NCBI RefSeq assembly: GCF_001536285.1
Contig: NZ_FAOZ01000002.1
Coordinates: forward strand, 186,001 to 250,000
DNA: 64,000 nucleotides
Source: Parafrankia irregularis
GTDB lineage: Bacteria; Actinomycetota; Actinomycetes; Frankiales; Frankiaceae
Direction of reading: 5' to 3'
This document shows positions 18,666 through 46,442 of the stretch, piece by piece. The notes below the pieces were generated by a model. That model did no database searches. It was not told where the DNA came from and saw only the letters and a list, made by a program, of their open reading frames with translations. Within the stretch, counting starts at the first letter, position 1. Every line of letters starts with the position of its first letter. Made by a program: the position numbers and the translations under genes.

Positions 18666-18920
18666 GTGGCACGCATCGTGGTCAGGTACTGGGCGGCGGC
18701 CCGGGAGGCGGCCGGTGTCGAGCAGGACGAGGTGGACGCGCCGACGCTCGCCGTGGCGCTGGATGACGTCGCGCGCCGCCGCGGCGCCGCCCTCGCCACG
18801 GTGTTGGCCCGCTGTGCCTTCCTGATCGACGAGATGCCGGTCGGTCGACGCGACCCGCAGGACGTCAACCTGCGAGAAGGGTCGGTGGTGGAGGTGCTGC
18901 CCCCGTTCGCCGGGGGGTGA
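18666..18920 (+). CDS. moaD: MoaD/ThiS-family sulfur-carrier protein
   Basis: An 84-aa ubiquitin-like protein from the GTG at 18666 (GAGGGA upstream). It starts VARIVVRYWAAAREAAGVEQ and ends VVEVLPPFAGG with the C-terminal Gly-Gly that is adenylated and thiocarboxylated. Length and ending fit MoaD, the small subunit of molybdopterin synthase. A ThiS-like role is possible. No MoaE or other molybdopterin genes are adjacent. Confidence 0.8.
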   Translation: MARIVVRYWAAAREAAGVEQDEVDAPTLAVALDDVARRRGAALATVLARCAFLIDEMPVGRRDPQDVNLREGSVVEVLPPFAGG

Positions 18921-20911: not shown

Positions 20912-21304
20912 ATGGACCCCGACCTGGGCCCAGCCGTGGATCTGGTCGCGGAGCTCGCCGCGCTCGGCCAGGTGCCCGGTGAGGTCGCGACGCTGCTGCA
21001 GTTCTCGACGGCCTTCTGCGCGCCCTGCCGGGCCGCGCGGCGCCAGCTGGCAGACGTCGCGGCGCTCGTGCCCGGCGTGCGGTATGTGGAGATCGACGCG
21101 GAGTCCCACCTGGAGCTGGTGCGGCGTCTGGGCATTCGCAGCACCCCGACGGTGGTGATCCTCGACGGGTCGGGCACCGAGGTGCGCCGGGTGACCGGTG
21201 CCCCGCCGACGAAGGCGGCGGTGATCGCGACCCTGGCGTCGTTGGTCGAGGTCGCACCCGGAGATCGGGAGCCGGGCCCAGATGGTGCCCCGGTAGATCT
21301 TTAG
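20912..21304 (+). CDS. Thioredoxin-family protein
   Basis: A 130-aa protein with a thioredoxin fold. LLQFSTAFCAPCRAARRQLA carries the active-site CAPC (about residues 36-39), and GIRSTPTVVILDGSG carries the cis-Pro loop. No signal peptide is visible, so it is probably cytosolic, unlike the coupled DUF2993 protein 17 bp upstream. Next downstream is the sulfur operon leader. A role in thiol redox is likely, partners unknown. Confidence 0.85.
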   Translation: MDPDLGPAVDLVAELAALGQVPGEVATLLQFSTAFCAPCRAARRQLADVAALVPGVRYVEIDAESHLELVRRLGIRSTPTVVILDGSGTEVRRVTGAPPTKAAVIATLASLVEVAPGDREPGPDGAPVDL

Positions 21305-21353
21305 GGTAAGGGTTAACACAGAAGTGACATTCGCTGCTACCGTGACACGAACC

Positions 21354-21431
21354 ATGTGCAGCGTCCTGCTTGTGAAGCGCCGCGCGGTCGACCTGTGCCG
21401 CGTGGGCAGCTGCTTGTGTTGCGGTTCCTGA
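21354..21431 (+). CDS. Cysteine-rich leader peptide of the rhodanese-sseC operon
   Basis: A 25-aa ORF reading MCSVLLVKRRAVDLCR and ending GSCLCCGS. Five of its 25 codons are Cys, with TGC-TTG-TGT-TGC near the end. It lies 200 bp upstream of the thiosulfate sulfurtransferase gene. It has the RRxVDLCR...CLCC pattern of the actinobacterial leader peptides placed before sulfur genes. In mycobacteria, polycysteine leader ORFs act as cysteine-responsive attenuators of the genes behind them. A TACCGT -10-like box at 21338-21343 sits 10 nt before the ATG, so the ORF may be leaderless or nearly so. Confidence 0.8.
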   Translation: MCSVLLVKRRAVDLCRVGSCLCCGS

Positions 21432-21630
21432 CAGCGCGTTGACCTAGTCCGCGCCCGGGTTCCTTGGGCGTACCGAGCGAGCCTCGACCTCGTACCTCCG
21501 CCTGCTCCGCTCCGTCTCCGTCCCCTGCTTCGCCTCGGGCCGCGGCCTGCCGCAACGCCACCTCCGGGCACCGTCCCGGATGCCATACCTGTCTCGTCCC
21601 CTGTTCCGCAACCGCGAAAGGAACGCGCGC

Positions 21631-22464
21631 ATGAGCCGCGAGAACGCGCTGGTCAACGCGACCTGGGCAGAAGAGCACGCCAGCGACCCCAAGGTCGTGC
21701 TCGTGGAGGTCGACGAGGACGTCTCGGCCTACGACAAGGGGCACATCCCCGGCGCCGTCCGGCTCGACTGGAAGTCCGAGCTGCAGGACCCGATCATCCG
21801 CGACTTCGTGAACAAGGAGCAGTTCGAGAAGCTCCTGTCCGAGAAGGGCATCGCGAACGACGACACCGTGGTGCTGTACGGCGGCAACAACAACTGGTTC
21901 GCCGCCTACGCCTACTGGTACTTCGTCCTGTACGGCCACGCCGACGTCCGCCTGCTCGACGGCGGCCGCAAGAAGTGGGAGCTGGACGGCCGCGAGCTGA
22001 CCCCCGACGTCACGCCGCGTCCGGCGACCAGCTATACCGCCTCCGAGGCGCGTACCGACATCCGGGCCTTCCGCGACGAGGTCATCACCGCGATCGGCTC
22101 GAAGAACCTGGTGGACGTCCGCTCGCCCGACGAGTTCTCCGGTCGCCTGCTCGCCCCGGCGCACCTGCCGCAGGAGCAGTCGCAGCGGGCCGGCCACATC
22201 CCGACGGCCAAGAACGTCCCGTGGGCGAAGACCGCGAACGAGGACGGCACCTTCCGGTCGGACGACGAGCTGAAGGCCCTCTACGCCGAGGTCGGGGTTG
22301 ACCTGACCAAGGACACCATCGCCTACTGCCGGATCGGTGAGCGTTCCGCGCACACCTGGTTCGCCCTGCACGAGCTGCTTGGTCTCGCGAACGTGAAGAA
22401 CTACGACGGCTCGTGGACCGAGTACGGCTCGCTCGTGGGCGTGCCGATCGAGAAGGGCGCCTGA
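21631..22464 (+). CDS. Thiosulfate sulfurtransferase (rhodanese, CysA2-like)
   Basis: A 277-aa two-domain rhodanese. The N-terminal inactive domain has VSAYDKGHIPGAVRLDWKSE and VVLYGGNNNWFAAYAYW. The C-terminal domain has NLVDVRSPDEFSG and the active-site loop AYCRIGERSAHTW with catalytic Cys. It moves sulfane sulfur from thiosulfate (or another donor) to cyanide or thiol acceptors. ATG 21631 has GAAAGGA nine bases upstream. It is followed after 2 bp by the sseC-like gene, as in the mycobacterial cysA2-sseC operon, and shares the cysteine-rich leader and a terminator. Confidence 0.92.
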   Translation: MSRENALVNATWAEEHASDPKVVLVEVDEDVSAYDKGHIPGAVRLDWKSELQDPIIRDFVNKEQFEKLLSEKGIANDDTVVLYGGNNNWFAAYAYWYFVLYGHADVRLLDGGRKKWELDGRELTPDVTPRPATSYTASEARTDIRAFRDEVITAIGSKNLVDVRSPDEFSGRLLAPAHLPQEQSQRAGHIPTAKNVPWAKTANEDGTFRSDDELKALYAEVGVDLTKDTIAYCRIGERSAHTWFALHELLGLANVKNYDGSWTEYGSLVGVPIEKGA

Positions 22465-22466
22465 TC

Positions 22467-22766
22467 ATGTGCGGTGCGACCAGTGGTGGACCATCTGTGG
22501 AAGGAATTGACGTGGCCAAGGAAACCGTGATCCAGGGAGTCGTGGTCTCCGGCGGTGAGCCGGTTTCGACTGGTTACGCCCGCCTGCTCGACTCCGGTGG
22601 CGACTTCACCGCCGAGGTGCCGCTTTCGGCGACCGGCCAGTTCCGCTTCTTCGCGCGTCCTGGCGAGTGGACGGTCCGCGCCCTGGTTCCGGGCGCGACC
22701 GGCGAGCGCAAGGTCGTCGCCCGCCAGGGTGAGCCGGTCGACACCCAGGTCGACGTCACGGTCTGA
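22467..22766 (+). CDS. sseC: DUF1416 protein SseC
   Basis: A 99-aa protein opening MCGATSGGPSVEGIDVAKET, the DUF1416 signature with Cys at position 2, followed by a beta-sandwich-like domain (QGVVVSGGEPVSTGYARLLD, TGQFRFFARPGEWTVRALVP). It always accompanies the rhodanese gene in actinobacteria and is thought to serve sulfur transfer. The mechanism is not established. It starts two bases after the rhodanese stop and ends 90 bp before a strong terminator. Confidence 0.88.
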   Translation: MCGATSGGPSVEGIDVAKETVIQGVVVSGGEPVSTGYARLLDSGGDFTAEVPLSATGQFRFFARPGEWTVRALVPGATGERKVVARQGEPVDTQVDVTV

Positions 22767-23120: not shown

Positions 23121-23813
23121 GTGTCGGCGGTGGCTGAGGCGGAGGGCCTGCGCGAACGGAAGAAGCGGCGCACCCGTCAGACGATCATCGAGGTGGCGCA
23201 CGAGCTGTTTCAGGAGAAGGGCTTCGACAGCGCGACACTCGAGGAGATCGCCGCGGGAGCGGACGTGTCGGTGCGCACCCTGTTCCGGTACTTCACCGGC
23301 AAGGAGGCGATCGCGCTCGCACCGTTGGACGAGATGGGCGATCTGACTGTTGCGGCACTGCGCCGCCGGCCCGCCGACGAGCCGCCGCTGACGGCGCTGC
23401 GATGCGCGGCCCTCAGCGCCTGGGCGCTGATGTCGCCGGACGGAGGCTCGTTGCGGCGCTACGCCGATCAACTGCTGCCCAGTGACGAGGCCACCCCACT
23501 GGCCGGCGCGGTGCTGAGCCGGCTGATCGTCATCGGTGACCGTCTCGCCATGGAGCTTGTCGACAACGAGGTGCTCCTGGTCGGCGGTGGAACCGGAGGC
23601 GGCGCCGGCGTCGACGGGTCGGTTGCCGGCACCGTGCCAACCCAGGCGAGCCTTTCGACGGTCACCGAACTGGACGCCCAGATGATTGTCGTCAGCTTTC
23701 TCGGTGCCATTCAGGTGGCAATCCGCTCCTGGTGCCGATCGGGCAGTACGGACCTGGTGGAGCTTCTCGCCGTGGTGGAGAAGTGTCTCGATCGGATCTG
23801 CCTCAGAACCTGA
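23121..23813 (+). CDS. TetR-family transcriptional regulator
   Basis: A 230-aa protein from the GTG at 23121 (AAGGGGG upstream). The N-terminal HTH is clear: RTRQTIIEVAHELFQEKGFD, then LEEIAAGADVSVRTLFRYFT, then KEAI. The C-terminal ligand and dimer domain follows, broken by a Gly-rich loop (VGGGTGGGAGVDG, about residue 157). It precedes squalene-hopene cyclase by 159 bp in the same direction, so it may control that gene as well as itself. The ligand is unknown. Confidence 0.85.
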   Translation: MSAVAEAEGLRERKKRRTRQTIIEVAHELFQEKGFDSATLEEIAAGADVSVRTLFRYFTGKEAIALAPLDEMGDLTVAALRRRPADEPPLTALRCAALSAWALMSPDGGSLRRYADQLLPSDEATPLAGAVLSRLIVIGDRLAMELVDNEVLLVGGGTGGGAGVDGSVAGTVPTQASLSTVTELDAQMIVVSFLGAIQVAIRSWCRSGSTDLVELLAVVEKCLDRICLRT

Positions 23814-23971: not shown

Positions 23972-26176
23972 ATGTCTGTCTCCCGGGTTTCCGAGGCAAT
24001 CGGGCACCATATTCCCGAGCAGGTTGTCGATGCTTCCGCCGCGGTACGTGACCAGGCGGAACGCGATGTTCGCGATGTTCGCGACGTTCGTGACGGCGCG
24101 GACCGGCTGGCCGGCGCGCTGCGCCGGGCCACCCAGCACCTGCTGTCCCTGCAGGACAGCACCGGTTGGTGGAAGTTCGACCTGGAGAGCAACACCACCA
24201 TGGATGCCGAGGACCTGCTGCTGCGCGAGTTCCTCGGAATTCGTACGGAGTCCCTCACGGCGGCCTCCGCGAAGTTCATTCGTTCCCGCCAGCTGGCGGA
24301 CGGCTCCTGGCCGCAGTACTTCGGTGGACCGGGTGAACTGTCCATCACGGTCGAGTCCTACATAGCCCTTCGGCTGGCTGGTGACGAACCGTCGGCCCCA
24401 CATATGGAACGTGCTGCGTCCTGGATCCGGGAGAACGGCGGAGTTCCCGCCACCCGGGTGTTCACCAGAATCTGGATGGCTCTTTTCGGCTGGTGGCGCT
24501 GGGAGGATCTGCCCGTGCTGCCACCCGAGATCATGCTGCTGCCCCACCAGGCCCCGCTGAGCATCTACTCGTTCGGATCCTGGGCTCGGCAGACCATTGT
24601 TCCCCTTACCATCGTCTTCGCGCTCCGTCCGGTCCGTCCGGCACCTTTCGGCCTGGAGGAGCTGTCGGTCGACGATCCGGATGGTTCCGGTTCCACGACG
24701 TCGGTGGCCGCTGGAACCGGCGCCGGTGCTGGAGCCGGTGCTGGGTCCGGCGTTGGTGCCGGGGGCGGCAGTGGCGGTGCTGGCCACGGTGTCAGCGCGG
24801 GTGTCGGATCCGCGCTGCGCGGCATCCTTGGGCTGCGCGGCATGGTGCCGCTTGGCTGGAAGCCCTTCTTCCGGTGGGTCGATGCCGGGCTGCACCGCTA
24901 TCACCATCACCCGATCGGCCCGCTGCGCCGGCACGCGATGCGTACGGCGGAACGCTGGATCATCGCGCGGCAGGAGGCCGATGGCTGCTTCGGCGGGATC
25001 CAGCCGCCGGCCGTGTACTCGATCATCGCGCTGCGGCTGCTCGGCTATGACCTTGCGCATCCGGTGCTGAAGGCAGCGCTGGAAGCTCTCGACGACTACT
25101 CGGTCACCCTCCCCGACGGGGCGCGGATGATCGAGGCCTCGCAGTCTCCCGTCTGGGACACGGCGCTCGCGGTGAACGCGATCGTCGAGGCGGGCGACGT
25201 CATCGGCATCGAGCCGGACGACCCGGCGCTGCTGCGGGCCGCCGACTGGCTGCTCGGCCAGGAGATCCGTGATCGCAGCGGTGACTGGCAGGTGAACCAC
25301 CCGGACCTGCCCGGCGGCGGCTGGGCGTTCGAGTTCGAGAACGACACCTATCCCGACACCGACGACACCGCCGAGGTACTCCTCGCTCTGCGGCATGTCC
25401 GTCATCCCGCGCCAGAGAAGATCGAATCCGCAACCGATCGGACCGTGACCTGGCTGCTCGGCCTGCAGTCCAGTGACGGTGGATGGGGCGCCTACGATTC
25501 GGACAACACCAGCACGCTTGTCTACAAGATTCCGTTCGGTGACTTCGGCGCCCTCACCGATCCGCCGTCTGCGGACGTCACCGCCCACGTTGTCGAGGCT
25601 CTCGTCGACGCCGGGCTGACCGAGGATCCCCGGACGCGGCGTGGGGTGTCCTGGCTGCTGGACCATCAGGAGTCGGACGGTTCGTGGTTCGGCCGCTGGG
25701 GCGTCAACCATGTCTACGGCACCGGATCCGTCCTGCCTGCGCTGGCCGCCGCAGGGCTGGCGCCGACCCACCCGGCCATCGGCGATGGCGTCGCCTGGCT
25801 GCTGTCCCGCCAGAACTCCGACGGTGGGTGGGGTGAGGACCTGCGTTCCTACAGCGATCCGCGGTGGAACGGCAGGGGCGTGTCCACAGCGTCGCAGACG
25901 GCCTGGGGGATGCTCGGGCTGCTGGCGGGAGAGCAAGGGCCCGACGTGGCGGTGGCGCTCGCACGGGCCGCGGACTGGCTTGCCGAACAGCAGCGCCCGG
26001 ACGGGACCTGGGACGAGGACCAGTTCACAGGCACCGGCTTTCCGGGGGAATTCTACCTCAACTACAACGGGTATCGCCTGATCTGGCCGGTTCTGGCCCT
26101 CGGTCGTTACGGCCACTCCCTGCGGACGTCGCCCCCGCCGACAGTCGTGGACCCGAAGTCCCGGCCCGGCCACTAG
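23972..26176 (+). CDS. shc: Squalene-hopene cyclase
   Basis: A 734-aa class II triterpene cyclase that folds squalene to hopene/hopanol, the base of hopanoid membrane lipids. The protonating DxDDTA motif is DTDDTA from residue 462. Several QW repeats are visible: LQDSTGWWKFD, QLADGSWPQYFGG, LQSSDGGWGAYDSDN, HQESDGSWFGRWG, RQNSDGGWGEDL and QQRPDGTWDED. The YNGYRLIWPVLALGRY ending is typical. Two oddities are a DVRDVRDVRD repeat near residue 30 and a roughly 40-residue Gly/Ala/Ser low-complexity insert at about residues 235-278. No other hopanoid (hpn) genes are in the window. ATG 23972 follows weak ribosome-site sequence. Confidence 0.93.
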   Translation: MSVSRVSEAIGHHIPEQVVDASAAVRDQAERDVRDVRDVRDGADRLAGALRRATQHLLSLQDSTGWWKFDLESNTTMDAEDLLLREFLGIRTESLTAASAKFIRSRQLADGSWPQYFGGPGELSITVESYIALRLAGDEPSAPHMERAASWIRENGGVPATRVFTRIWMALFGWWRWEDLPVLPPEIMLLPHQAPLSIYSFGSWARQTIVPLTIVFALRPVRPAPFGLEELSVDDPDGSGSTTSVAAGTGAGAGAGAGSGVGAGGGSGGAGHGVSAGVGSALRGILGLRGMVPLGWKPFFRWVDAGLHRYHHHPIGPLRRHAMRTAERWIIARQEADGCFGGIQPPAVYSIIALRLLGYDLAHPVLKAALEALDDYSVTLPDGARMIEASQSPVWDTALAVNAIVEAGDVIGIEPDDPALLRAADWLLGQEIRDRSGDWQVNHPDLPGGGWAFEFENDTYPDTDDTAEVLLALRHVRHPAPEKIESATDRTVTWLLGLQSSDGGWGAYDSDNTSTLVYKIPFGDFGALTDPPSADVTAHVVEALVDAGLTEDPRTRRGVSWLLDHQESDGSWFGRWGVNHVYGTGSVLPALAAAGLAPTHPAIGDGVAWLLSRQNSDGGWGEDLRSYSDPRWNGRGVSTASQTAWGMLGLLAGEQGPDVAVALARAADWLAEQQRPDGTWDEDQFTGTGFPGEFYLNYNGYRLIWPVLALGRYGHSLRTSPPPTVVDPKSRPGH

Positions 26177-45869: not shown

Positions 45870-46047
45870 ATCTCGAGTCTAAGTCCGATCACAGCAGCGG
45901 TCGGGGCGCAGCGGTCGCGGCCCCGGAGCGCGAGCGCGATCACGGAGCGCCACCAGGGAGGGCCACCACGGAGCGCGAGGGCGGCGATCATCTCGAAAAA
46001 ACAGTTTGCGGCGGCCCCCGCTGCGCGCGTAGCGTTCCCGGTACACG

Positions 46048-46107
46048 AGAAGGGAGGTGGTCCAAGCTTTGTATGCACATAGGACTCGTGAGGTGACTGT
46101 CCGCTAG
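46048..46107 (+). promoter_or_regulatory. Near-complete complement of the 16S rRNA tail with tiny ORFs
   Basis: AGAAGGGAGGTGGTCC at 46048-46063 can pair along its whole 16 nt with the 16S rRNA 3' end (GGATCACCTCCTTTCT), using two G-U pairs. Tiny frames follow: TTG 46069 ([12 protein letters not shown], stop at 46105-46107) and ATG 46073 (MHIGLVR). The sequence lies 336 bp before gpmA and divergent from the Fur gene. Such a strong site before a peptide of 7-13 residues suggests a translated leader or ribosome-binding control element. It resembles sequence I have seen in other actinobacteria but cannot name. Confidence 0.45.
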
Positions 46108-46442
46108 CCGGTCTCGTGGTCCTCACCCTCTTGCCGGGTGGCCCTCGGGCACCGGCGCCGGCGAGTACCAGGCAGACACCGGACCCCCGGGTGCCGTCGA
46201 TCAGTCCCGACGGCCCATCCCTCCCATCCTGGGCGGGGTGGAGCACCCCGGGGGTCACTGCTTTTCCGGGTCGGGTGGACGCCCTGGCCGGGCGTGCCCC
46301 CGGCCCACCACCCGCTCCGGCAACCCGCACCACCCGTACCGGCCAGATGCGCCGCCAGCCCACACATCTCGTGGCGGCCGACGCACTCGCCGTGAGTGGG
46401 GGTCACTGGCCGAGGAGTGTGCCGAGCGGGCAGGATTCACCT

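Follow-up and report, generated by a model that had tools for sequence, protein, structure and literature searches.

A cysteine-rich leader peptide upstream of a rhodanese operon in Parafrankia irregularis: a probable Frankiaceae ortholog of the mycobacterial Ms5788A leader

The trp, leu and his leaders are amino-acid attenuators that work through a terminator, with the regulatory codons placed in a leader ORF and ribosome stalling as the readout. The mycobacterial cysteine leader of the Ms5788A type, located upstream of the cysA2 operon, was reportedly the subject of a functional study by Canestrari in 2020. A Cys-rich ORF ahead of cysA2 in mycobacteria had been described by Shell in 2015 (PMC4633059), and two papers, in the passages where they cite the mycobacterial functional work, speak of translational attenuation dependent on cysteine (PMC13236596, PMC9031893). 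Here we analyze a related leader in a stretch of 64,000 nucleotides from the actinobacterium Parafrankia irregularis, which is referred to as the window and supplies all coordinates below unless another contig is named.

The leader ORF occupies positions 21354..21431 of the + strand, from an ATG at 21354 to a stop codon at 21429-21431, and its 25 codons specify a peptide of 25 aa (MCSVLLVKRRAVDLCRVGSCLCCGS) with cysteines at codons 2, 15, 20, 22 and 23, so that three of the five fall within the last six codons. In these respects the original prediction was accurate: it had described a 25-codon ORF with five cysteines clustered at its end, about 200 bp from the sulfur genes and preceded by a -10-like box, and we find the ORF and its translation as stated, a distance of 199 nt from the leader stop to the rhodanese start, and a box, TACCGT (21338..21343, + strand), that ends 10 nt 5' of the ATG. 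A possible -35 element, TTAACA (21313-21318, + strand), is separated from the -10-like box by a 19-nt spacer. The underlying TAnnnT pattern precedes the start in all 33 Frankiaceae leaders examined, with a gap of 9-10 nt in 30 of them, as against the 7 nt of the Ms5788A type; of 81 leaders from outside the family with a recognisable box, 68 have a gap of 7 nt. A 7-nt gap is what is expected of a leaderless mRNA. As the gap in the window is 10 nt instead, the 5' UTR of the leader mRNA probably measures 0-3 nt, which would leave no room for a Shine-Dalgarno sequence (SD). The mRNA, earlier described as probably leaderless, would in that case be nearly so, its gap being longer than the typical one.

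Profile comparisons place the peptide within a known family. It matches NF042934 (putative leader peptide, cis_reg_atten) with 35.6 bits (E 4.8e-9), above the curated cut-off of 27 bits, and NF042933 (Ms5788A family Cys-rich leader peptide) with 40.2 bits (E 1.9e-10), a little short of the equivalog threshold (45 bits), which the leaders at the same locus in four other Frankiaceae (G014, G020, G023 and G025) do pass. By these scores it is a member of NF042934 and a near relative, under the equivalog line, of NF042933. With NF042934 it has in common the [VI]DLxR[VI] signature followed at a fixed distance by a cysteine coded UGU, and with Ms5788A the core KRRAVDLCRV and the place before the same rhodanese gene; it differs from the latter in having CLCC where Ms5788A leaders have a run of up to seven cysteines. 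The peptide was recovered in all 35 Frankiaceae genomes searched and the NF042933 profile has a match in 225 of 297 genomes of the class, a degree of conservation that rules out a chance ORF. Among 80 named actinobacterial genomes, 59 have such a leader within about 1.1 kb on the 5' side of the rhodanese gene. The peptide is under purifying selection, with a pN/pS of 0.20 in the family and 0.25 over the class sample, and a search of Rfam returned no family at the leader locus. Five cysteines in 25 residues and a conserved peptide could also point to a functional small protein that binds metals or thiols instead of regulating genes. However, relatives have between one and about eight cysteines, at varying places, and both the position before sulfur operons and the complementarity of the tail to a downstream SD fit a role in cis, so that we regard such a protein as highly improbable.

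The relatives of this leader mostly precede the same rhodanese gene, mycobacteria included. We therefore regard it as orthologous to the Ms5788A cysteine leader of mycobacteria, and not as the extension of the mechanism to a new, sulfurtransferase operon that had originally been put forward. In mycobacteria the founding member already precedes this very cysA2 operon (PMC4633059), mycobacterial-type loci share the gene order thioredoxin-leader-DUF4395-rhodanese, and NCBIfam models already exist. The more general part of that proposal, a cysteine-responsive attenuator peptide, gains support from the family, from class-wide conservation and from SD complementarity in relatives. What emerges is that the Frankiaceae, plant symbionts among them, have an orthologous version of a regulator known from mycobacteria, which suggests that cysteine-leader regulation is likely to be ancient in this class.

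The first complete gene 3' of the leader in the window codes for a rhodanese-type sulfurtransferase of the CysA/SseA type (277 aa; 21631..22464, + strand; PF00581 in two stretches), which has a match in 57 of 58 related genomes searched and is provided with the SD AAAGGA (21617..21622, + strand). It is followed by a gene for an SseC-like protein (DUF1416; 22467..22766, + strand; PF07210). On the 5' side, a thioredoxin-like (ThiX-like) gene (20912..21304, + strand; PF00085) is a conserved neighbor, at the same place in relatives, outside the leader transcript; an LmeA-like gene is also found upstream. Ms5788A loci and Frankiaceae relatives alike have a thioredoxin gene upstream, and in most relatives a DUF4395 gene (PF14340) is situated between leader and rhodanese. 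Unlike the Ms5788A-type loci, the window has lost this gene: it is reduced there, as in G001, to a remnant of its 3' end (21541..21629, + strand), recognizable by an alignment score of 49, where none of 200 shuffles exceeded 37. In G005 the gene was shortened independently and in another way, and no DUF4395 match was found at the G020 locus. The operon was thus rewired through gene loss while the leader stayed. Within the remnant an in-frame ATG at 21580, 51 nt 5' of the conserved rhodanese start, adds MPYLSRPLFRNRERNAR and could mislead gene finders as the start of the rhodanese gene.

The relatives that retain DUF4395 indicate what the leader might control. In the Frankiaceae the SD of the DUF4395 gene, UCAGGAGA, is complementary to UUUCCUGA, the sequence in which the leader closes with Ser and stop, and folding of the family loci with an intact DUF4395 places the SD against this Ser codon plus stop. 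In 17 of 22 family loci no other stretch pairs with the SD better than the leader end, and the mean energy of the duplex is -13.9, compared with -8.6 (sd 0.6) for shuffled ends, with none of 300 sets as good. In these intact loci the predicted openness of the SD is often about 0.1 when the leader is free, and it rises to 0.3-0.7 once a ribosome sits at the Cys codons or the leader is covered, more so in the latter case. A permutation within the family gave no sign that leader end and SD covary pair by pair (fraction 0.83); the evidence is hence one of conserved complementarity and not of compensatory change. Outside the family the complementarity is uneven, with a median shuffle p of 0.28, partly through uncertain start codons: those of several relatives were picked by their SD and may be wrong, and the mycobacterial DUF4395 starts used are upstream starts with an SD. 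In some mycobacterial-type loci the run of Cys codons is itself complementary to ACAACAGG/GCAACAGG overlapping the SD, so that the partner would be the Ser-stop end in the Frankiaceae versus the poly-Cys run in the Ms5788A type; this appears to be the same logic implemented with another sequence. In a Frankia relative (L059) the tail of the leader is frame-shifted and runs 9 codons further, and UUUCCUGA is kept as RNA even though it is no longer the stop, which favors a role of the tail at the RNA level.

This complementarity fits a translational attenuation that is lifted when ribosomes stall on the Cys codons, and we consider it probable that the Frankiaceae ortholog of Ms5788A is a Cys-tRNA-sensing leader governing the SD of the next gene. 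The nearly leaderless mRNA would be translated at once. With plentiful Cys-tRNA the ribosome would pass the Cys codons and depart, leaving the 3' end of the leader free to block the next gene's SD by base pairing. With scarce Cys-tRNA it would wait at the Cys codons, above all at an invariant UGU (21417-21419), and by covering the leader end would open the SD, so that the sulfur genes are made. We infer the stalling, the cysteine response and the identity of the SD controlled in the window from the sequence and from the mycobacterial work. The classical attenuators act on a terminator, whereas the relatives of the window leader suggest control at the Shine-Dalgarno sequence.

In the window itself the ancestral target of such a switch, DUF4395 with its SD, is gone, and because this gene has been lost save for a remnant, the predicted control of the rhodanese start by the leader is weak. 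The leader tail GCGGUUCCU (21421..21429, + strand), the equivalent of the UUUCCUGA tail that pairs in relatives, is the candidate anti-SD; with a ribosome at the UGU codon the openness of the rhodanese SD is predicted to rise from 0.25 to 0.32-0.38, a small change, and the leader region as a whole folds no better than shuffles (z 0.23). Taken alone, the pairing of the leader end with the rhodanese SD looked like a good case of rewiring (-20.0 kcal/mol, p 0.02), but the tail pairs about equally well with the rhodanese SDs of several other species, and a specific rewiring was therefore rejected. Both the disappearance of the SD partner conserved in relatives and the small predicted change in openness are what one would expect of a vestigial leader, which exerts no strong control after the loss of DUF4395 and its SD and leaves the rhodanese to be translated from its own SD. 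This we think unlikely. The leader is identical in G001. In G005, where DUF4395 was lost in a different way, the leader plus the next 16 nt is nearly the same as in the window (two amino-acid differences), and the remaining intergenic stretch has diverged between the two. That the one part was kept as the other changed suggests continued selection, and retention of the leader in the window, G001 and G005 speaks for a control that persists.

Transcription control has been proposed for other actinobacterial leaders (PMC8079986), and the window leader might likewise use a terminator or Rho to govern RNA polymerase, given that the intergenic stretch 21498-21540 is C-rich and G-poor and in this resembles a Rho loading site. 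The original prediction had pointed to alternative hairpins in 21432-21630; a search of this stretch is complicated by its holding the remnant of the deleted DUF4395, whose SD pairs with the leader end in relatives, and no intrinsic terminator-like site was found at the leader locus. The C-rich stretch itself lies close to the remnant, where the intergenic region has changed, and the relatives show SD complementarity instead. We accordingly hold transcriptional attenuation to be quite improbable here, and retain a leader acting on the SD as the preferred reading.

If ribosomes do wait on this leader, the last conserved Cys codon, the UGU of codon 22 (21417..21419, + strand) followed by a pyrimidine, looks like the sensing codon. 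Of 149 distinct leader cores, some of them from leaders that precede other genes, 148 have TGT for the cysteine ten codons past the Val of VDLxRV; the sole exception (L136) has TGC and then directly TGT. By comparison, TGT is used in 9 of 125 cases for the first core Cys, in 15 of 67 for the next, and for 53 of 264 Cys codons in the flanking genes. Since these counts are drawn from related species, a tree of 116 rhodanese proteins served to guard against kinship: on it the UGU codon underwent no change, as against at least 22 changes of the Asp codon and at least 6 and 4 of the other leader Cys codons. The base 3' of UGU is a pyrimidine in 99% of the rhodanese-type and 95% of the other leaders, and it is kept though the next residue varies among R, C, P, Q, L, H, F and S. 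Conserved RNA pairing as a cause was not seen as a general feature on inspection by eye. UGU is read via wobble by one tRNA-Cys (GCA), and a 3' pyrimidine tends to create a poor codon context; the simplest reading of the invariance would be a slow codon at the sensing site. We did not find it described in the literature searched, a set from which the main mycobacterial functional paper is absent.

These observations raise the possibility, which we advance tentatively, that across actinobacteria one fixed Cys codon (UGU plus pyrimidine) behind a VDLxRV nascent chain is the sensor rather than the number of Cys codons, with a slow wobble codon stopping the ribosome and the poly-Cys runs being later amplifiers. 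If true, a wobble-read UGU in poor context would halt the ribosome exactly there when Cys-tRNA drops, and a loose notion of many Cys codons becomes a one-base prediction, namely that UGU -> UGC should weaken the response. It is also conceivable, and in our opinion rather unlikely, that KRRAVDLCRV in the exit tunnel helps arrest at the UGU, the peptide itself then sensing together with the number of Cys codons. VDLxRV is better conserved than the number of cysteines, which falls to two in several leaders of Streptomyces and Actinomadura and to one or two in other leaders of the P. irregularis genome, and the core shows a pN/pS of about 0.2 while its Asp, Val and Leu codons vary freely among synonyms; the passages reporting the published mycobacterial work, however, describe codon-dependent slowing.

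A search of the P. irregularis genome with the NF042934 profile yielded five leaders over the cut-off, that of the window included. The further leaders have one or two cysteines, the aligned one coded TGT, and the genes 3' of them include those for NIR_SIR, TauD, an ABC permease, a family 5 solute-binding protein, a ROK protein and a Trans_reg_C protein. Some of these genes serve sulfur uptake or reduction, which fits a shared cysteine response. One NF042934 leader, ARLHVDLLRVSSAGCRRSR (L064, C2:277988-278041, about 28 kb past the end of the window), precedes a nitrite/sulfite reductase gene, and an NF042934-like leader on the reverse strand (L067, C30:77223-77273), with 25.5 bits just below the cut-off, precedes a gene for a TauD-type dioxygenase.

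Elsewhere in the window, 2.4 kb upstream of the leader, a gene for a ThiS-family sulfur carrier (18681-18920, E 3.4e-10) encodes a possible partner of the sulfurtransferase. Downstream lies a squalene-hopene cyclase gene (24032-26176), with a TetR-type regulator (23133-23813) in between, and the Rfam actinobacterial sRNA Ms_IGR-5 is detected at 46043-46263 with 78.4 bits.
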